From Actinomycetota bacterium (GTDB taxonomy: Bacteria > Actinomycetota > Acidimicrobiia > Acidimicrobiales > JAJPHE01): a DNA stretch of 32,020 nucleotides. Of the stretch, positions 11,312 through 20,067 are shown piece by piece. Numbering within the stretch: the stretch's first letter is position 1; every line of letters begins with the position of its first letter. The stretch covers positions 1-32,020 of the forward strand of contig DAHUYE010000035.1 of the NCBI GenBank assembly GCA_027315345.1, written 5' to 3'. Position numbers and translations under genes: made by a program. Under the pieces are notes generated by a model. The model was not told the origin of the DNA. It was given only the letters and a program-made list of their open reading frames with translations, and searched no databases.

Positions 11312-12343
11312 TCAGATGGCGGCGGACAGGGAGCCGATCGGCATGCGCAGGTCGGCCAGCATGTTCAGATCGGCTTGGGGCGCCCGGCCCAGGGTGGTGA
11401 GGTAGTTCCCCACAATCAAGGCATTGATGCCCGCCGTCATGCCCATGGTCTGCAGATCGCCCAGGGTGATCTCCCGCCCGCCGGCATAGCGCAGGATGGT
11501 GCGGGGCAGACCCAGCCGGAACAGGGCGATCCAGCGAATGGCATCCAGAGGTCGCACGGGCCGGCGGATGGCCAGGGGCGTTCCCGGCCGAGGATCGAGG
11601 AAGTTGACCGGCACCTCATCGGGATCGAGTTCCTGCAACTGTCCGATCAGCTCCAGGCGCTGGGGGTCGCTCTCCCCCATGCCGAGCAGCACTCCGCAGC
11701 ACAGCTCCATACCGGCCGCCTTGACCTCCTGGCATGTCTCCCACCGCTCGTCCCAGCTGTGGGTGGTGACGATCTGGGGGAAGTGGCTTCGCGCCGTTTC
11801 GAGGTTGTGGTTGTAGCGGTGGGTACCGCCCTCGGCCAGGCGCTGGGCCTGGCCGGGACCGAGGATCCCGGACGAGACGGCCACGTTGAGCCCCGTCTCT
11901 TCGGTGATGAGCGGGACGAGCTCGAGGATGCGGGACAGGGTCCGCTCATCGGGGCCGCGCACGGCCAACACGATGCAGAACTCGGTGGCTCCCAGAGCCG
12001 CAGTCTCCCGGGCCGCGGCCAGGACCTCATCGGTGTCGAGAAAGGGGGTGGCCTTGACCGGTGTGTCGAAGCGGGAGGACTGGGCGCAGAAGTGGCAGTC
12101 CTCCGGACAGCCGCCGGTCTTGGCCGACAGGATGCCCTCCACCTCGACCGTGTCACCGCACCAGGCCAACCGGACCTCGTGGGCCAGAGCGGCCAGTGCC
12201 GGCACGGAACGGTCGGGTACCGCCGCCAGGGCAGCCAACTCGTCCGGGCGCAGAAGCCGCCGCTCCTCGAGCAGGGCCGCGCCGGCGCCGGCCATCAACT
12301 CCCGCACGAGAGACGGGTCTTCGGTTACTTGGCTGATCCCCAT
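11312..12343 (-). CDS. bioB: Biotin synthase BioB
   Basis: Radical SAM enzyme that inserts sulfur into dethiobiotin, the last step of biotin synthesis. The 343-residue product has the [4Fe-4S] motif CPEDCHFC with C79, C83 and C86, followed by [10 protein letters not shown]. The [2Fe-2S] ligands are represented by the Cys in [11 protein letters not shown], the Cys pair in [13 protein letters not shown] and the Arg in [23 protein letters not shown] is the substrate-loop motif. The ATG at 12343 has no strong Shine-Dalgarno. It lies 43 bp after the TenA-fold gene and just before bsaP, at the tail of the hydrogenase gene run. No other bio genes are in the window. Confidence 0.97.
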
Positions 12344-12386
12344 GGCGCCGGACGCTACAAGGACGTCGCCACCCCGTCGCCCATCT

Positions 12387-12869
12387 TCAGGCGGCCGGGG
12401 CGAGCTCTTCGCGTTCGTCCAGAAAGGCCCACCACGCCTCGGCCCCGGCCCGCAGGGCGGGGACCAACTCCTCGGCTGTCCCGGTCAGGCTGGACACGGC
12501 GTCCCACGCCCAGGCCCCGTGGCGGACATCGACCTCGGCGTGGTGGTCCCAGAACGACACCGCCGCGTCGCTCATGCCGTAGTGGGTGCGAAGGCCTTCG
12601 GCTTTGCTCAGGGCCACCTCGGCGGACTGGGACTCATCGGCCAGGTTGGCCGCCACCAGATCCCGTGCCTCTCCTTCGGGGAGCCCGGCCACCAACTGGG
12701 CCAGGAAGCCGGGCAGGTAGGCCTCGAAGTGACGGTACTGGGCGGCGTAGGAGGCCAGTTCCGCCTCCGACACCTCGCCGCGCTCCCAGCGCCGGTAGAA
12801 GGGATGGTCCAGCAGACGCCGGCCGGCCAGCGCGTCAGTCAATACGTCGTTCCCCAGTCGGTTGCTCAT
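12387..12869 (-). CDS. TenA/heme-oxygenase-fold putative metal-dependent oxidase
   Basis: A 160-residue all-helical protein that starts with the TenA/PqqC-like segment [18 protein letters not shown], then [14 protein letters not shown] (H47), [10 protein letters not shown] (E79) and [16 protein letters not shown]. The last contains H110-xxx-D114-xx-H117, the third-helix metal signature of heme-oxygenase-like diiron oxidases such as CADD and UndA (family knowledge). The first-helix Glu ligand is not obvious, so metal content is uncertain. AGGA lies about 8 nt before the ATG at 12869, and the gene overlaps the hydrogenase small-subunit gene by 35 bp while lying 43 bp before bioB. The substrate is unknown; a role in biotin or cofactor synthesis, or in oxygen protection of the hydrogenase, would be guesses. 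Confidence 0.75.
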
Positions 12870-13362
12870 CCGCAGATCCTAACGGCCGACCGACAGTCAC
12901 TCCCTGGCCGGCCGGGCGGCTGGCCAGCAGCCCGAACAGGGCGGTGGCTATGGCGTCGGGAGTCGGCGGGCAACCGGGGATCTGGAGGTCGACGGGCAGA
13001 ACAAGCTCAACCGGCCCGAGGATGTCATCGGGGGAACCCAACAGGCCGATACCCAGCGCACAGTCTCCGAGGGCGGCCACCCGCCGCGGCTCGGGCATGG
13101 CCTCATAAGCGCGGCGCAAGGCGGTGCTCATCCGGCTCGTGATCGCCCCGGTGACCAAGAGGACGTCGGCGTGCCTGGGCGACGCCACCATCCCCAGTCC
13201 GAAGCGGGACAGGTCATAGTGAGGGCCCGACGCCAGCGTCAGCTCGTGCTCACAGCCGTTGCAGGAGCCGACGTCGCAGTGCCGGATGGCCAGGCTCCCC
13301 GTCCGATGGGGCAGATCCAGCTGCCGACGCAGGCGGCGCAGATCGCGCAGCAGTGTGAACAT
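12835..13362 (-). CDS. [NiFe]-hydrogenase-like small subunit (HycG/HyfI/NuoB family)
   Basis: Electron-transfer subunit that carries the [4Fe-4S] cluster next to the catalytic subunit. The 175-residue product has CDVGSCNGCEHEL with C34 and C37, GDCALG with C101 and IPGCPPTPDAI with C131, the complete four-Cys set. The CNGC arrangement, rather than the NuoB Cys-Cys pair, favours a hydrogenase-type subunit over complex I. The ATG at 13362 overlaps the stop of the large-subunit gene (TGATG). It has no twin-arginine signal, so the complex faces the cytoplasm. The C-terminal end overlaps the next gene. Confidence 0.9.
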   Translation of the reverse strand: MFTLLRDLRRLRRQLDLPHRTGSLAIRHCDVGSCNGCEHELTLASGPHYDLSRFGLGMVASPRHADVLLVTGAITSRMSTALRRAYEAMPEPRRVAALGDCALGIGLLGSPDDILGPVELVLPVDLQIPGCPPTPDAIATALFGLLASRPAGQGVTVGRPLGSADEQPTGERRID

Positions 13363-14762
13363 CAGCGGTCCACGCAGGCGTAGCAGAGCTCGAAGCTCTT
13401 GTTGATGAGTGGGAAGTCGGGCAACAGGCTCCCGGCCGCGGCGGCGGCCACCGCCGGCCAGTTGGCAAAAGAAGCCGTGCGCAGTTGCAGACGTATCACC
13501 TGTCCGTCACGAGCCTCGAGGATGCACACGGTCCGGCCCCGTGGCCCCTCCACCACGCCGATGCCGGTCTCATCCCCCGGCCCGGCTCCGGGGATACGCA
13601 CGGCTGGACCGGGTTCAGCTCGAGACGCGGTCACGGGCCGATCCAGCAGCATCCCGAGGAGGTCGAAGGACTGCCAAAGTTCGAGCGCCCGCTGCTCGTA
13701 GCGGGCCCGGACGTCTCCGTCGGGCCGTTCGGGCAAGGCCGGCGCGAAACCGTCGTAGGAGAGCCGGCCAGAGTGGCAACGCTCGTCCCTGTCCAGGCCG
13801 GCGGCACGAGCGGCCGGGCCGACGACGCCGAGCGCCCGGGCCCGGCCGGCGTCGATCACGCCGACGCCGGCCAGCCGATCCTGGAAGGACGCATTGAAGG
13901 CCAGTTCCCGCCAGGCTCGGGCCGCGTCCGTCCGGACGGAGTCCAACTCGTTGGCCGCTCTCCGCACGGCGGAGGCGTCCCAGTCGAGGTCGCTGGCCCC
14001 GACCTGCACGGCTCCCCGAAGGAACCGGTGGCCAGTCAGAGCGTCATTGAGACGGCGGGCCCTTTCCGTCAGCGCCGCGAAGGCGGCATTGCCTGCCGCC
14101 ATACCGACCCCGGCGCAGATGGCGGACACGTCGTTCAGGTGGTTCCAGACCCGCTCGAGCTCGACCAGGATGGTGCGCACCCGCCTCAGTTCGGAAGGGG
14201 GCTCCAGCGCCAGCACCTGCTCGCACGCGTCGGCGTAGGCGATGGCATTGGTGACCGAGCAGGCCGCACAGGTTCGGGCCACCAAGGCCATCGCCTCCCT
14301 CAATCGGCGCCCCTCGGCGGCGGCCTGCAATCCGCGGTGCTTGTAGAAGAGTTGAGCGTCGAGGTGGAGGATCCGGTCACCAACTACGTGAAAGCGGAAG
14401 TGCCCGGACTCGATCACCCCGGCGTGAATCGGCCCCACCGCCACCTGGTAGGCGTCATGGCCCGACACCCGCACCGTCCAATCCTCCAAGGCCGCGCCGT
14501 GGGCGACCAGGGGCCGCATCGGACTGTGACCGTTGAAGCCGACCCCGTAGAGATCCGCGGCCTCCCGCTCGTCCCAGCCGGCGGCGGGCGCCAGGTCCAC
14601 GATGGACGGAACCGACCCTTCGACCACCGGAGCCGAGATGAGGCCGGGCGACCCGTCAGGACCGATGAGGACGGTGCGCACGACCGGTCCGGTCGCGTAT
14701 AGGGCTCCAAAGATGGCCGACCCGGACAGGGCGTCGGCCACGTCGCCGCGGTACCCACTCAC
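13362..14762 (-). CDS. [NiFe]-hydrogenase-like large subunit (HycE/HyfG family, NuoC-NuoD fusion)
   Basis: Predicted catalytic subunit of 466 residues. Residues 1-100 form a NuoC-like domain (GWDEREAADLYGVGF). The NuoD/HycE domain follows, with VGPIHAGVIESGHFRFHVV. Both nickel-binding pairs are present: C165-A-A-C168 in ARTCAACSVTN and C460-Y-A-C463 in SFELCYACVDR. The first differs from the usual CGIC. The protein ends exactly at CxxCxxR, with no tail for a maturation protease to remove. The GTG at 14762 overlaps the upstream stop (GTGA). The open frame continues further upstream but only as an antisense-like shadow of the HyfF-like gene. Confidence 0.9.
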   Translation of the reverse strand: MSGYRGDVADALSGSAIFGALYATGPVVRTVLIGPDGSPGLISAPVVEGSVPSIVDLAPAAGWDEREAADLYGVGFNGHSPMRPLVAHGAALEDWTVRVSGHDAYQVAVGPIHAGVIESGHFRFHVVGDRILHLDAQLFYKHRGLQAAAEGRRLREAMALVARTCAACSVTNAIAYADACEQVLALEPPSELRRVRTILVELERVWNHLNDVSAICAGVGMAAGNAAFAALTERARRLNDALTGHRFLRGAVQVGASDLDWDASAVRRAANELDSVRTDAARAWRELAFNASFQDRLAGVGVIDAGRARALGVVGPAARAAGLDRDERCHSGRLSYDGFAPALPERPDGDVRARYEQRALELWQSFDLLGMLLDRPVTASRAEPGPAVRIPGAGPGDETGIGVVEGPRGRTVCILEARDGQVIRLQLRTASFANWPAVAAAAAGSLLPDFPLINKSFELCYACVDR

Positions 14763-16222
14763 GACGCGCCCCGCACCAGGGCCGACACCAGGGCGCTGCC
14801 TGGCAACGAGAAGGCCACGGCCGTCAGGCCCAGCAAAAGACCGGAGGCGCCAACCGACAGGGCGACCACAGCGCCCAGACCGACCGGGTGGGCCGTGGTC
14901 CGGCGGCGGGACTTCCCGGCCAACATCTCGAGCAGGGCGTGGGCGAGCCCGAGAAAACCGAGGGCGAGAAGGGCGGCCGCCGCCGTAGCCGCCCAGGCAT
15001 GACCGGAGCCGTAGCCACCGGCCAGGATCATCACCTCGCTCACGAACAACGGGGACGGCGGCAGTCCGGCCAGAGCCCCGAGGGAGACCCCCATGGCTGT
15101 GCCGAGTCCCGGGGCACTGCGGCCGATGCCGCTGGGGGCATGACCGGCGCAACGTGGATCGTGGACCAACAAGGGCGTCGAGGCATAGAAGCCCAGCGAC
15201 TTGGCCAGAGCGTGCCCGACTATGTGCACGGCTACTCCGGCCAAAGCCAGGGGACTGCCGAAGCCGATACCCAGGGCCAGGACACCCATGTGCTCGAGGC
15301 TCGAATAGGCGAGCAGCCGCTTCCAGGCCAGGGACTGCCAGAGGAATGGAACAGCCACGGCCAGGGAGGCCAGCCCGAACACGATGAGGATCCGATGGGC
15401 CGATCTCGGACCCACCGCCGGGCCGATGGCCCGCTCGACTCTCCAGGCCACGACCAGGACAGCGGGCAACAAGGCGGCGGACAGGAGGGCCGAGACCGGG
15501 GGAGGCGCCTCCGAGTGGGCATCGGGCAACCAGTTGTGTACCGGCGCCCAGCCGACCTTGGCGGCCAGACCGACCAGGACGAGTACATAGGCCACCAGAG
15601 CCTCGTTGTGGCCGCCGGCGTAGTGGCCGAGATGGTGCCAGGACAGCCCGGCCCATCCGTCCCCGGGCAGTCCGCCGGCCAGCAGGCCCAGCCCGAGCAG
15701 GGCGACGCCGAGGCCGAGGGAGGTGAGGATCAGGTACTTCCATCCCGCCTCCAGGGCCCGAGGGCGCCCGGAGAAGCCGACCAGCAGGGCCGAGGTGGCG
15801 GTGGTGGCTTCGATCAGCAGCCAGGCCATGGCCAGGTTGCCAGCGATCGGCACCGCCAGCAGGGTGGCGATGAACACGAGCAGCACGACGTAATAGATGC
15901 GCTCGCGCCGCTGTGGGCCCACCACCGAGGTGGTCGACGTGCGCAGATACGAGGCCGAGAGCATCACACTGGCGAGGCCGACCACGCCGATGACCGGAAC
16001 CAGGATGGCTCCCAGCGCGTCGAGGGCGATCCAGCTTCCGGCCGCCGGCTGGTTCGGGACACGCAGGACCACGGCGCTGAAGGCCAGGGCCAGACCCGCG
16101 GTCAGGGCCATGCCCAGGACGGCAATCCGCTGCACCATCCTGGCGGGTATCACCGCGGTGCCGGCCGCGGCCAGCACCGGGACCGCCACCACCGACTCGG
16201 CCAGGAACAGGGCGCTAGTCAC
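14759..16222 (-). CDS. HyfF-like antiporter-type membrane subunit (NuoN/MrpD family)
   Basis: Proton-pumping type subunit of 487 residues with about 14 hydrophobic segments. Conserved charged residues of the family are present: E138 in WLLIEATT, K162 in GWKYLILTSLG, K222 in AAKVGWAPVHNWLPDAHSEA, and the lysine in FLWQSLAWKRLLAYSS. I chose GTG 16222, which overlaps the upstream stop (GTGACTAG) and has CAGGAG 5 nt before it; the ATG at 16255 has no such support. It is one of two antiporter-like subunits in this operon, which suggests ion movement is part of its function. Confidence 0.9.
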   Translation of the reverse strand: MTSALFLAESVVAVPVLAAAGTAVIPARMVQRIAVLGMALTAGLALAFSAVVLRVPNQPAAGSWIALDALGAILVPVIGVVGLASVMLSASYLRTSTTSVVGPQRRERIYYVVLLVFIATLLAVPIAGNLAMAWLLIEATTATSALLVGFSGRPRALEAGWKYLILTSLGLGVALLGLGLLAGGLPGDGWAGLSWHHLGHYAGGHNEALVAYVLVLVGLAAKVGWAPVHNWLPDAHSEAPPPVSALLSAALLPAVLVVAWRVERAIGPAVGPRSAHRILIVFGLASLAVAVPFLWQSLAWKRLLAYSSLEHMGVLALGIGFGSPLALAGVAVHIVGHALAKSLGFYASTPLLVHDPRCAGHAPSGIGRSAPGLGTAMGVSLGALAGLPPSPLFVSEVMILAGGYGSGHAWAATAAAALLALGFLGLAHALLEMLAGKSRRRTTAHPVGLGAVVALSVGASGLLLGLTAVAFSLPGSALVSALVRGAS

Positions 16223-16826
16223 GCAGGCTCCTGAGGGCGCCGGCATCACCGGCACCGAACTCGGCGAAGATCCTCTGGTGGAACACCGAGGCCACCAGGG
16301 TGAGCAGAGTCAGGTCGAGGGTGACCCCGAGCTCGATCTCCAGCGATGACCCCCCGTGCAGGGTCAGAGCGGCCAGGGCCAGGCCGTTCTCGACCAGGAC
16401 TATCCCGAGGACGTGGAACAACGTCGCCCGTCGCGTCGCCACGGTCGACACGCCGAAGGCCACCAGGGCCAGAACGCCCTGATGGGCGTAATGGTCGGCG
16501 GCGGGTGAGATCGGCACCAGCCAGGTCAGGGCCAGTGCGAATCCCAGGGCCAGCCCGGCCCGGACCGGGGCGGCCACCTTGGCGCGCACCGGGCGCAGTT
16601 CCCTGGTCCTACTGACGAGGAACATCAACAGCCCGGCAAAGGCCACCGCCCTGACCGCCAGGGCCGCCGCCGCCAGCACGTCGTTGCCGGTGCGGGCGCG
16701 GGATAGCGCCACGCCGACCAGGACCAGGGCCTGGGCCGTGACCAAGCCGACCGCGGTCGAGCGCCGGCGCACGACCACGACGCCCAGCCCGAGCACCACC
16801 AGGGCCCACACGGCCGGACCGTTCAT
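16215..16826 (-). CDS. HyfE-like membrane subunit (NuoK family)
   Basis: Membrane subunit of 203 residues with about six helices. The segment LGIVLVENGLALAALTLHGG resembles the glutamate-bearing helix of HyfE and NuoK. The ATG at 16826 overlaps the upstream stop (ATGA), and the gene ends inside the start of the HyfF-like gene. The frame stays open to 17591, but that part is Gly/Arg-rich and lies under the HycD-like gene, so it is not coding. In hydrogenase-4-type complexes this subunit links the antiporter subunits to the HycD-like anchor (family knowledge). Confidence 0.87.
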   Translation of the reverse strand: MNGPAVWALVVLGLGVVVVRRRSTAVGLVTAQALVLVGVALSRARTGNDVLAAAALAVRAVAFAGLLMFLVSRTRELRPVRAKVAAPVRAGLALGFALALTWLVPISPAADHYAHQGVLALVAFGVSTVATRRATLFHVLGIVLVENGLALAALTLHGGSSLEIELGVTLDLTLLTLVASVFHQRIFAEFGAGDAGALRSLRD

Positions 16827-17746
16827 CGGGGCGCCAACCAGGCCGCCACGCCGAGCAGGGCGAGAGCCGACCCCACACCGAGCAGCCGAGGGACGAAGAG
16901 GACCCGCATCTTGGCCACCACGGTCTCCAGCACGGCCAGGGCGCCGGCCAGCACGGCCAGAACGGCGGGCAGCGCCACCAGCTGGACGGCCACCGTCCGG
17001 CCGTGGGGAAGGAAGACCTGGGCCGCAATGACCAGCACGATCCAGTGGCGCGCCGCCGCCGCCCACTGGAGATAGGCCTGATCCCGCCCGGCGTACTCCA
17101 GGAGCGGCCCCTCGTGGATCATGGTCAACTCCAGATGGGTGTCGGGGTTGTCCACCGGTTGGCGGCCGGTCTCGGCCACGACGACGATGCCGAAGGCGAG
17201 CGCGGCCAGAGCCAGGGCCGGAGTGGCCCACGCCCCGCCCCCGGCGGTTCCGGCCACCACTCCCCGCAGGTCGGTGGTCCCCGCCGACAGCGAAGCCACG
17301 CCGAGGCTGAGCACAAGCGTCGCCTCCATGAACACGGAGATGGTGAGGTCCCGGCTGGCTCCCATCAGGGAGAAGCCGTTGCCGGTGTCCCACGCCGCGG
17401 CGGCGATGGCGAAGCGGGCCAGCGCCAGCAGCCCGACCAGGGCGAAGGCGTCGTGGCCTACCCCCCAGCCCGGGGCCACGCCGGCGGCGGGGACGAGCAG
17501 CACCGCCGCCACCATGCACGCCGCCACCGTGGCCGGGGCCCACCGGTAGACCTGGGTGGCTCCCTCCACTTCCACCGTGCTCTTGGACCACAGGCGGCGC
17601 AGCTCCCGGTAGGGCTGTAACGGGCCGGGCCCGCGCCGGCCCTGGAGCCGGGCCTTGGCCGCCTGGATCAACCCGGGCAGGAGCGGAGCGCCGAGCACCC
17701 CGCCACAGACCTGCACCGAGGCCTCGGCCAGAGTGGCGCCACCCAT
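16823..17746 (-). CDS. HycD/HyfC-like membrane anchor (NuoH family)
   Basis: Membrane anchor of 307 residues that joins the hydrogenase arm to the antiporter arm. It shows the NuoH/HycD loops ARLQGRRGPGPLQPYREL at 32-49 and ETGRQPVDNPDTHLELTMI at about 192-210, then HEGPLLEYAG. The ATG at 17746 shares one base with the upstream stop (TGATG), and the end overlaps the HyfE-like start (ATGA). About eight helices are visible. The fit to HycD is close: the PVDNP-THLELTMIHE block is typical of formate hydrogenlyase-type complexes. Confidence 0.92.
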   Translation of the reverse strand: MGGATLAEASVQVCGGVLGAPLLPGLIQAAKARLQGRRGPGPLQPYRELRRLWSKSTVEVEGATQVYRWAPATVAACMVAAVLLVPAAGVAPGWGVGHDAFALVGLLALARFAIAAAAWDTGNGFSLMGASRDLTISVFMEATLVLSLGVASLSAGTTDLRGVVAGTAGGGAWATPALALAALAFGIVVVAETGRQPVDNPDTHLELTMIHEGPLLEYAGRDQAYLQWAAAARHWIVLVIAAQVFLPHGRTVAVQLVALPAVLAVLAGALAVLETVVAKMRVLFVPRLLGVGSALALLGVAAWLAPR

Positions 17747-19695
17747 CAGACCAGCCCCAGCCGGGCCGCCACCAGAAGGAGCAGGACGACGCCCATCAGG
17801 TAGCCGACGTAGGTTCCGAGGTTTCCGGACTGCAGGCGTCTGAGCCGGGTGGCGGCGGCCATGGCGAGCCGGTGCGTGGGCGCATAGACGCGCTCTTCGA
17901 TCAGGTGGGGAACCTGACCCTGGTAGCCCACCTCCTGGAGGACTCCTGCCTCCTGGCGGCTCACCACGTCGCGCTGGGGACGCAGGACGACCTCCAAGGC
18001 CAGGCGCAGGGGCTTGGTGAAACCGGCGCCGGTCCACTCCAGTCGGCGGCTGACCACCTGGCCGCAGGCCCAGGTGGGGGCAGCGGGTGCGGCGGCCCGA
18101 CCCCGACCTCGGAGAAGCACCAGGGCACCGGCCAGGACGATGAGAAGGACAGCGATGGCCGGGCTCGGCAGGGAGCCGGTCCCGGGTAAACGCAACCCCA
18201 TCCCGACCGGTAGACCCGCCGACCAGGGCGCCAGACCGACCAGTCGCGCCAAAAGGACGCCCGGAGCCACGCCGAGGGCGGCACAGGCCAGGGCCAGAAA
18301 GGCCACCGCCCCGGCCATTCCCGCACTGGGTTGGCGGGCGTCCACCGGAGGATCCCGACGGGGCGAGCCCAGCAACACCAGACCCACCACCTTGACGAAA
18401 CAGAAGGCGGCCAGGGCGGCGGTGGCCGCCAGGGCCCCCAGGGCGAGGGCACCGGCCAGGCCATCGGCCACTCGCCCGTAGCGGGGGACGTGCACCAGGG
18501 CCTGGAGGGTCAGCCACTCCGACGCGAACCCGTTGAGGGGTGGCAGACCGGCTATGGCCATCGAGCCGACCAGGAAGGAGCCGCCCACTACGGGCACCCG
18601 GCGCAACAGTCCGCCGAGGCGGTCCAGGTCCAGGCGGCCAGCCATCCGTTCGAAGGCGCCGGCGCAGAGGAACAGCAGCGACTTGAACACGGCGTGATTC
18701 ACGGTGTGCAGGAGGGCGGCCCCCAGCGCCAGGGCGGCCCAACCGTCGGCTCCGCGGTTGCGCAGCAGCACACAGGCGCCTATGCCCATCACGATGATCC
18801 CGATGTTCTCGATCGAATGCATGGCCAGGAGCCGCTTGAGGTCATGCTCGAAGAGGGCGTAGGTCACGCCCCCCACCGCCGAGAGGGCGCCGGTGGCCAG
18901 GACGAGGATTCCCAGCCAGACCGGCAGCGGTCCGGCCCAGTCAACCAGCACCCTGACCATCAGGTAGATGCCGATCTTGATCATCACTCCGCTCATGAGC
19001 GCCGAGACCGGCGCCGGAGCGATGGGATGGGCGCGGGGCAGCCACACGTGCAGGGGCATGACCCCGGCCTTGGTGCCCAGTCCGACCAGGGCGGCCACCA
19101 CCACGACCGCTTGCAGCCCGGAGCCGGCGTGGATCACCCCGGGTGAGCCGATGGCTCCGGCTCGGGCCAGGAGAAGGACGGCCACCCATGTCCCCACCCC
19201 GCCGAGATGGGTAACGGCCAGGTAGGTGAACACCGACTGGCGGGCGTGGCGATCCTCCTGGTGGGCCACCAGGATGACCGCGGCGGGCAGCAGGGTCATC
19301 AACTCCCAACCGGCCAGCAAGGTGGCCGGGTCCCGGGCGCAGAGGACGCCCACCATGGCCAGCAGGAAGCCGGCGGTGAGGGAACCGACCGCCCGGTCCT
19401 TACCCGTCGGGCGCAGGTAGTCCCGGGCGAAGCACAGGGCCGGAGCTCCGACCAGTCCCAGAGTGCCGAGGAACAGCCCGCTCAGCGGATCCAGGCCGAG
19501 GCGCGGGGTGAGGTGGTTGGTGAAGGTCCCGCCCACGGACGTCCCGGAGGCCAGGGCCCAGAAACCGGCCACCGCCACCGCCGCCGCCCCGGCGGCCTCA
19601 AGGGAAAGGCCCGTTCGAAAGCTGGATCGGGCGGCGCACAGCAGGCCTCCGGCTCCGACCAGGGCCACGCCGGTCAGCAACAGTGCACCGATCAC
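17746..19695 (-). CDS. HyfB-like antiporter-type membrane subunit (NuoL family)
   Basis: Largest membrane subunit, 649 residues with about 15 hydrophobic segments and a C-terminal amphipathic stretch. Key residues include E131 in LAGWELMTLLP, K209 in GTKAGVMPLHVWLPRAHPIA, and K240 in PVSALMSGVMIKIGIYLMVR. This block is nearly diagnostic for HyfB/HycC rather than NuoL. The C-terminus has the HyfB-type domain with TWACGQ. The GTG at 19695 overlaps the arsR stop (GTGA). It is the first structural gene of the module. Confidence 0.92.
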   Translation of the reverse strand: MIGALLLTGVALVGAGGLLCAARSSFRTGLSLEAAGAAAVAVAGFWALASGTSVGGTFTNHLTPRLGLDPLSGLFLGTLGLVGAPALCFARDYLRPTGKDRAVGSLTAGFLLAMVGVLCARDPATLLAGWELMTLLPAAVILVAHQEDRHARQSVFTYLAVTHLGGVGTWVAVLLLARAGAIGSPGVIHAGSGLQAVVVVAALVGLGTKAGVMPLHVWLPRAHPIAPAPVSALMSGVMIKIGIYLMVRVLVDWAGPLPVWLGILVLATGALSAVGGVTYALFEHDLKRLLAMHSIENIGIIVMGIGACVLLRNRGADGWAALALGAALLHTVNHAVFKSLLFLCAGAFERMAGRLDLDRLGGLLRRVPVVGGSFLVGSMAIAGLPPLNGFASEWLTLQALVHVPRYGRVADGLAGALALGALAATAALAAFCFVKVVGLVLLGSPRRDPPVDARQPSAGMAGAVAFLALACAALGVAPGVLLARLVGLAPWSAGLPVGMGLRLPGTGSLPSPAIAVLLIVLAGALVLLRGRGRAAAPAAPTWACGQVVSRRLEWTGAGFTKPLRLALEVVLRPQRDVVSRQEAGVLQEVGYQGQVPHLIEERVYAPTHRLAMAAATRLRRLQSGNLGTYVGYLMGVVLLLLVAARLGLV

Positions 19696-20027
19696 TGGGC
19701 GCTCAGCTCACGCAGGATCGACTGCTGATTGACCAGTTGGGCGGTAATGATCTCCCGGCCGGCAGCCAGGAGATCGAAGACCCGGGGGTTCTCGACCCGG
19801 TAGTAGATGGTGGTGCCCTCCCGGCGCGATCCGACCAAGCCGATGCGACGGAGGGCGGCCAGGTGCTGAGAGGTGCTTCCCTCCCCCAGTGCCAGTTCGG
19901 CCTGCAGCCATCCGACCGACCGCTCCCCCTCCCGGAGGAGTTCGAGGATGCGCACCCGGGCCGGATGGCCGAGGACCCTGAACAGATTCGCCTTCACCTC
20001 GTGCACGGGACCGGAGGCCGGGCTCAC
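19692..20027 (-). CDS. ArsR-family regulator heading the hydrogenase-like operon
   Basis: Small winged-helix repressor of 111 residues. NLFRVLGHPARVRILELL is the typical ArsR helix, and STSQHLAALRRIGLVGSRRE (about 51-70) is the recognition helix and turn. It has no cysteine at all, so it cannot sense metals through thiols as classic ArsR proteins do. The GTG at 20027 lies 7 nt after a TATACT -10 box, a leaderless layout, and the upstream 12-12-12 inverted repeat is its likely operator. Its position resembles mycobacterial Rv0081, an ArsR regulator in front of a hydrogenase-like set (recalled, not searched). The signal is unknown. Confidence 0.92.
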   Translation of the reverse strand: MSPASGPVHEVKANLFRVLGHPARVRILELLREGERSVGWLQAELALGEGSTSQHLAALRRIGLVGSRREGTTIYYRVENPRVFDLLAAGREIITAQLVNQQSILRELSAQ

Positions 20028-20031
20028 GTAA

Positions 20032-20067
20032 ATCAGTATATCTTTAGATCTTCTCAGATACGCTGAT
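20032..20067 (-). promoter_or_regulatory. Leaderless promoter and inverted-repeat operator of the arsR-hydrogenase operon
   Basis: The plus strand reads ATCAGTATATCT (20032-20043), a 12-nt spacer containing AGATCT, then AGATACGCTGAT (20056-20067). The arms are inverted repeats matching at 10 of 12 positions. On the minus strand TATACT (20040-20035) is a good -10 box exactly 7 nt before the arsR GTG, so transcription should start at the start codon. The -35 region is weak. The stretch is strikingly AT-rich for this genome. Operator function is inferred. Confidence 0.65.

Follow-up and report, generated by a model that had tools for sequence, protein, structure and literature searches.

What does a short, AT-rich and partly symmetric stretch of DNA do directly upstream of an arsR gene? 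The stretch lies in contig DAHUYE010000035.1 of an Actinomycetota bacterium, within a window of 32,020 nucleotides (the whole of the DNA analysed here). Comparison with orthologous loci suggests that it is very probably a switch to which ArsR binds, and that binding would shut off both the regulator's own leaderless gene and the genes of a respiratory complex.

The AT-rich inverted repeat

The first-pass annotation described an inverted repeat of the form 12-12-12 at positions 20032-20067. On recounting, the arms at 20032-20043 (ATCAGTATATCT) and 20056-20067 (AGATACGCTGAT) pair at the same 10 of 12 positions, around a 12-nucleotide spacer. The AT-rich island that was said to accompany the repeat is also present. 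Positions 20028-20067 are 32.5% GC, versus 70.7% for the window, and only two of the 31,981 possible 40-nucleotide windows are lower in GC; both (starting at 20029 and 20030) overlap the island.

Taken alone, the repeat is marginal as a statistic and close to chance. The whole window contains 164 repeats with at least 10 of 12 positions paired and a spacer of 0-20 nucleotides, including seven with a spacer of 12 and four whose arms are at least half AT. When the local 56 nucleotides are shuffled 2000 times with their dinucleotide composition kept, 4% of the shuffles contain at least one equally good repeat, and the best score is matched by 51 of 400 shuffles. Because the repeat by itself is near chance, these statistics are not taken as proof; it is the comparison of orthologs that places the feature above chance.

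A conserved 20-bp dyad

One search for orthologs yielded 38 loci, from which L032-L037 (a close type) and L038-L041 (a remoter type) were used. Among 296 genomes of the window's class, L003 is the only class-mate above 46% identity besides the window itself. A search of 349 genomes from the class to which the L032 genome belongs gave matches in 53, and 30 loci were taken, 27 of them new (L079-L105). With L084 repeating L037 and with L103 left out, the training set comprises 32 sequences and does not contain the window. A close group of 12 (the window, L003, L032-L036 and L079-L083) was chosen as the nearest.

A MAFFT alignment of seven upstream regions, with 45% mean identity and three invariant columns, was uninformative by itself, so an ungapped motif search was used in its place. 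The search for palindromic motifs in the 32 orthologous arsR upstream regions, window excluded, returned the 20-bp motif ATCTT(A/C)nAAnnTTn(T/G)AAGAT. Scored with this window-blind motif, the site at 20040-20059 on the minus strand, whose halves are ATCTGAGAAG and ATCTAAAGAT, reaches 19.3 bits. None of 2000 shuffles equals this score, and the site is the only match of at least 8 bits in the whole window. We regard it as the predicted ArsR operator. A search without imposed symmetry recovers the same motif, which correlates at 0.96 with its own reverse complement, and the log-likelihood of that search is 304 for the real sequences, versus 48-63 in 12 shuffled sets.

The earlier proposal to look for a similar repeat in front of orthologous operons is thus borne out by sequences other than the window, and the dyad centre, at 20049.5, is exactly that of the 12-12-12 repeat. 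The shape is another matter. The predicted operator is made up of the 12-nucleotide "spacer" plus the four base pairs of arm next to it on either side (ATCT/AGAT), and these 20 bp are the conserved part. Conservation does not extend to the outer 8 bp of either arm, which pair at 6 of 8 positions in the window versus 0-5 of 8 (mean about 1.7) in 23 other orthologs. The feature is confirmed as real, with its shape slightly misread. The register at 20048-20067, one mismatch away from the pattern, was rejected as an operator with a motif score of only 4.8 bits, and a third register at 20032-20051 scores -4.6 bits. A terminator or a hairpin in the RNA was also rejected: the scan shows no terminator-like site, and the predicted start lies downstream of the dyad.

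Within the 146 nucleotides before arsR, 23 of the 32 orthologs have a site of at least 18 bits, and three have weaker sites (8.6, 12.1 and 13.6 bits). The other six have no site in these 146 nucleotides. In five of the six, a site of 15.7-27.1 bits lies in another part of the 3.3-kb locus, again upstream of arsR, although at 15 bits a scan of such loci yields chance matches too where they are AT-rich. In L102, where arsR follows hyfG-hyfI, no site is found in the locus scanned. The gene hyfB is divergent from arsR in six loci; in three of these the arsR-hyfB intergenic region has sites of 22.3, 23.7 and 25.2 bits, and in the other three the sites are weaker, at 13.6-16.3 bits. The window site is itself less symmetric (5 of 10 inner pairs) and weaker than most ortholog sites.

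The predicted leaderless promoter

Leaderless actinobacterial promoters have a TANNNT box about 7 nucleotides before the start codon. The window holds an ordinary example of this arrangement, without any difference: TATACT (20035-20040, minus strand) ends, as had been pointed out, exactly 7 nucleotides before the GTG start codon of arsR (20025-20027, minus strand), and there is no Shine-Dalgarno-like motif. The GTG would then supply the first bases of the mRNA. No -35/-10 pair came out of a scan for such promoters, and the box has no -35 match.

The geometry is shared by the nearest relatives. A TANNNT ends 6-8 nucleotides before the start codon in all 12 members of the close group, and exactly 7 in nine, whereas in 2000 shuffles the number of such members averages 1.15 and never exceeds 6. 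No Shine-Dalgarno-like motif is seen before the arsR start in this group, and in most of the close orthologs the position of the start is kept, 18 codons before LGHPAR. Among 17 remoter orthologs, only two have TANNNT at 6-8 nucleotides; some have a Shine-Dalgarno-like motif, and four have no definable start. The contrast between 12 of 12 and 2 of 17 indicates that the leaderless form is a trait of the close group and not of the whole family.

The predicted operator is located directly upstream of the -10 box. The overlap of repeat and promoter that was first described therefore applies to the wider repeat, which covers the -10 box, whereas the 20-bp operator shares a single nucleotide with it. 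The combination of a probable autoregulatory operator with a leaderless start, as originally proposed, is supported as a prediction by these comparisons.

Occurrence in the genome

The pattern ATCTNNNNANNTNNNNAGAT is found in one place in the 3.84-Mb assembly. When one mismatch is allowed, there are seven places, two of them overlapping in the arsR promoter, versus one for a reversed control. The five places elsewhere include one of 18.2 bits, inside a 526-amino acid coding ORF, and four of at most 7.1 bits. The suggested genome search thus leaves the exact pattern at the arsR promoter only, and one strong site outside coding sequence. With a single such site, the putative arsR operator looks like a local switch, unlike Rv0081, for which PMC6177252 reports more than 700 binding sites. 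A genome search with a profile of 23 sites (R1), which is too short for sensitivity, hit 3 of 10 genomes when E values up to 5 were accepted. It gave nothing in G000, the genome of the window, where the window site itself was missed.

The ArsR protein

The gene arsR (19692-20027, minus strand) encodes a regulator of 111 amino acids with the winged helix-turn-helix of the ArsR family (Pfam HTH_5, 1.2e-10; 41.6 bits, cut-off 22). The closest solved structure is Rv0081 (6jmi, 1.8e-21; next, 2.1e-13), and the match spans residues 5-110 of 111. With a profile of eight orthologs the gap widens, to 1.6e-29 versus 2.8e-16.

The protein contains no cysteine, as had been noted, and the eight aligned orthologs hold a single, non-conserved one. 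By eye, the C-terminal helix has no histidine, so a metal site of the SmtB alpha5 type is absent. SmtB/ArsR metal sensors have alpha3 Cys or alpha5 His/Asp/Glu ligands, which the protein does not match, having no Cys and no His in the C-terminal helix, and the lack of a metal-binding Cys/His site is as expected of the Rv0081 type. As far as the sequence goes, the earlier view that the signal is not a thiol-bound metal holds.

The Hyf-like operon

Downstream of arsR on the same strand are genes for a Hyf-like complex. The hyfB/NuoL-like gene (17746-19695; Proton_antipo_M, 1.3e-41) begins with a GTG that overlaps the arsR TGA, at the junction CAGTGATCGG. It is followed by hyfC/NuoH-like (16823-17746, start inferred; NADHdh, 2.2e-33), a hyfE-like membrane subunit gene (16215-16826, start inferred), hyfF/NuoN-like (14759-16255; Proton_antipo_M, 1.4e-35), the hyfG-like large subunit gene (13362-14765, start approximate; Complex1_49kDa, 2.3e-26) and hyfI/NuoB-like (12835-13362; Oxidored_q6, 2.7e-26). 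The hyfE-like gene has no Pfam match and is conserved between hyfC and hyfF in all six loci L032-L037, which share the gene order arsR-B-C-E-F-G-I. At 23 of the 27 further loci (L079-L105), a hyf gene lies within 1.5 kb of arsR.

The HyfG-like protein carries RTCAAC and a terminal CYACVDR, and the corresponding motifs, R-x-C-x-x-C and terminal C-Y-A-C-x-D-R, are present in all seven sequences compared (the window and L032-L037). The maturation factor HypD, which a [NiFe] hydrogenase of group 4 would be expected to have in its genome, is not found in G000 (97.7% complete) and is absent from six of eight genomes of the arsR-hyf type. It is likewise absent from six of the seven genomes in the HyfG comparison, where completeness is given for G000 only. 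In those six, the Hyf-like complex combines a four-Cys site with the lack of a [NiFe] maturation factor.

Other arrangements also occur. In L005-L008 and L102, arsR lies behind hyfG (or hyfG-hyfI) and does not head the operon, and the terminal Cys pair seems to have been lost from the large subunits of L005-L008, as judged by eye in the upstream stretches only. In the window, hyfI is followed on the same strand by TENA/haem-oxygenase-like and radical SAM/BATS genes (11312-12869), for which tblastn gave no match in the available stretches of L032-L037.

Operator letters and the recognition helix

The letters of the half-sites vary with the recognition helix of the regulator. In a pooled search of 80 upstream regions, from which eight near-duplicates had first been removed, motif positions 5 and 6 were masked and sites of at least 10 bits were kept; these came from 26 of 33 regulators with a TSQH helix, 31 of 46 with LSQ and one with MSQ. 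At the masked half-site position 5, TSQH regulators have T in 45 of their 52 half-sites, and LSQ regulators have G in 46 of 62. Thus, TSQH is associated with ATCTT half-sites and LSQ with ATCTG half-sites, which ties the operator to the regulator. Remoter Rv0081-like regulators (53 upstream regions) have a 20-bp dyad of equal geometry with TTGA/ATCTGA half-sites. In the window site, one half is ATCTG and the other ATCTT. Because the TSQH and LSQ groups are also lineages, a single ancestral change, as opposed to repeated change, could explain the split.

A more far-reaching and rather doubtful idea is that TSQH regulators form a separate DNA-specificity class among the Rv0081-like, non-metal ArsR proteins. 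They would guard a Hyf-like complex that has all four metal-ligand [NiFe] cysteines and no HypD in the genome, and so might hold another cofactor and act on another substrate. The signal for ArsR might then be that substrate, or a redox state set by it, and the mixed operator of the window might be a transitional site.

Predicted mechanism

We put at roughly 0.85 the probability that an Rv0081-type ArsR represses its own leaderless arsR-hyf operon through the predicted operator at 20040-20059. RNA polymerase would use the TATACT box and start at or beside the GTG, and this promoter would drive arsR-hyfB-C-E-F-G-I. An ArsR dimer of the Rv0081 type would bind the 20-bp dyad, which adjoins the -10 box on its upstream side, and block polymerase sterically, so that ArsR would repress its own gene. 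Since arsR and hyfB overlap in one operon, repression would extend to all genes of the Hyf-like complex. Relief would presumably come from a ligand or state other than a Cys-bound metal.

It is improbable that some other regulator owns the operator and co-controls the arsR-hyf promoter, with ArsR binding elsewhere. The dyad accompanies arsR in divergent as well as co-directional layouts, the letters of its half-sites vary with the recognition helix of ArsR, and the equal dyad geometry among remoter Rv0081-like regulators also argues for ArsR.

If ArsR does bind at 20040-20059, it is quite unlikely to act there as an activator. The site is in the -35 to -10 stretch, and a dimer bound between these elements normally blocks polymerase. 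Activation has been proposed for Rv0081 at some targets, such as Rv3334, but autorepression of Rv0081 is reported in the same source (PMC6177252). Most improbable is that the repeat arose by chance in an AT-rich promoter and serves as no operator. The local shuffles described above would permit this (4%, and 51 of 400 for the best score), but the match of a window-blind motif at the exact dyad centre, equalled in 0 of 2000 shuffles, argues against it.

Comparison with known systems

Repression by ArsR would follow a known pattern. PMC6177252, citing He 2011, reports negative autoregulation of Rv0081 and binding of the protein to an inverted repeat in the Rv0081 promoter; the counterpart in the window is the conserved dyad, a predicted operator. 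In Mycobacterium tuberculosis, Rv0081 heads Rv0081-Rv0088 (hyc, a predicted formate hydrogenlyase), just as arsR heads a hyf/hyc-like operon here. A regulator that by eye is very close to Rv0081, in L137, has ATCTGATAAATTTTTCAACT before arsR-hyfI-hyfB. The window ArsR is 43% identical to it and has a TSQH helix with ATCTT-type half-sites, whereas the Rv0081 type has the recognition helix LSQQ. The gene order also differs: hyfI is last in the window and does not adjoin arsR, in contrast to arsR-hyfI-hyfB in L137 and L040. The Rv0081 type is further marked by hypoxia/DosR/MprA control and a large regulon; on the side of the window, the 20-bp pattern gives the one exact place and the five one-mismatch places elsewhere noted above.

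The metal-sensing repressors SmtB, ArsR and CzrA have the same winged-helix fold and regulate their own promoters through a short dyad operator, as is predicted for the window. In contrast to them, the window ArsR has no Cys or C-terminal His ligands, and the genes predicted to be under its control encode an electron-transfer complex instead of a metal pump.

The type of switch is thus already described for Rv0081, and the arsR-hyf operator is very probably a further example of an ordinary kind with an unusual target complex. Among the matches listed, there is no paper on the arsR-hyf operon in these environmental lineages. The analysis gives a concrete predicted 20-bp operator for a widespread Cys-free ArsR class that is unstudied outside mycobacteria, in which changes in the operator go along with changes in the recognition helix, and it places a Hyf-like energy complex under one testable switch. 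Because of the relation to Rv0081, the signal could be sought in harmless environmental relatives.

Further observations on related loci

L094 (1413 and 1903) and L097 (1383 and 1884) each have two operator-like sites, before arsR and between arsR and hyfB. Near-perfect operators also precede arsR without any hyf gene in the available flanks, in L082 (1469-1488) and L083 (1468-1487), and in L081 (187-206), a locus formed by a short contig end. Among the neighbours in L082 and L083, a divergent SulP-like permease can be made out by eye, and in L083 also a His-rich CDF-like protein.

The closest arsR-hyf relatives of the window are found in Thermoleophilia MAGs (L032, ArsR 82%), and among 295 sampled class-mates only L003 has a close copy. 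This distribution points to possible horizontal transfer of the arsR-hyf genes at 12835-20027 (minus strand).
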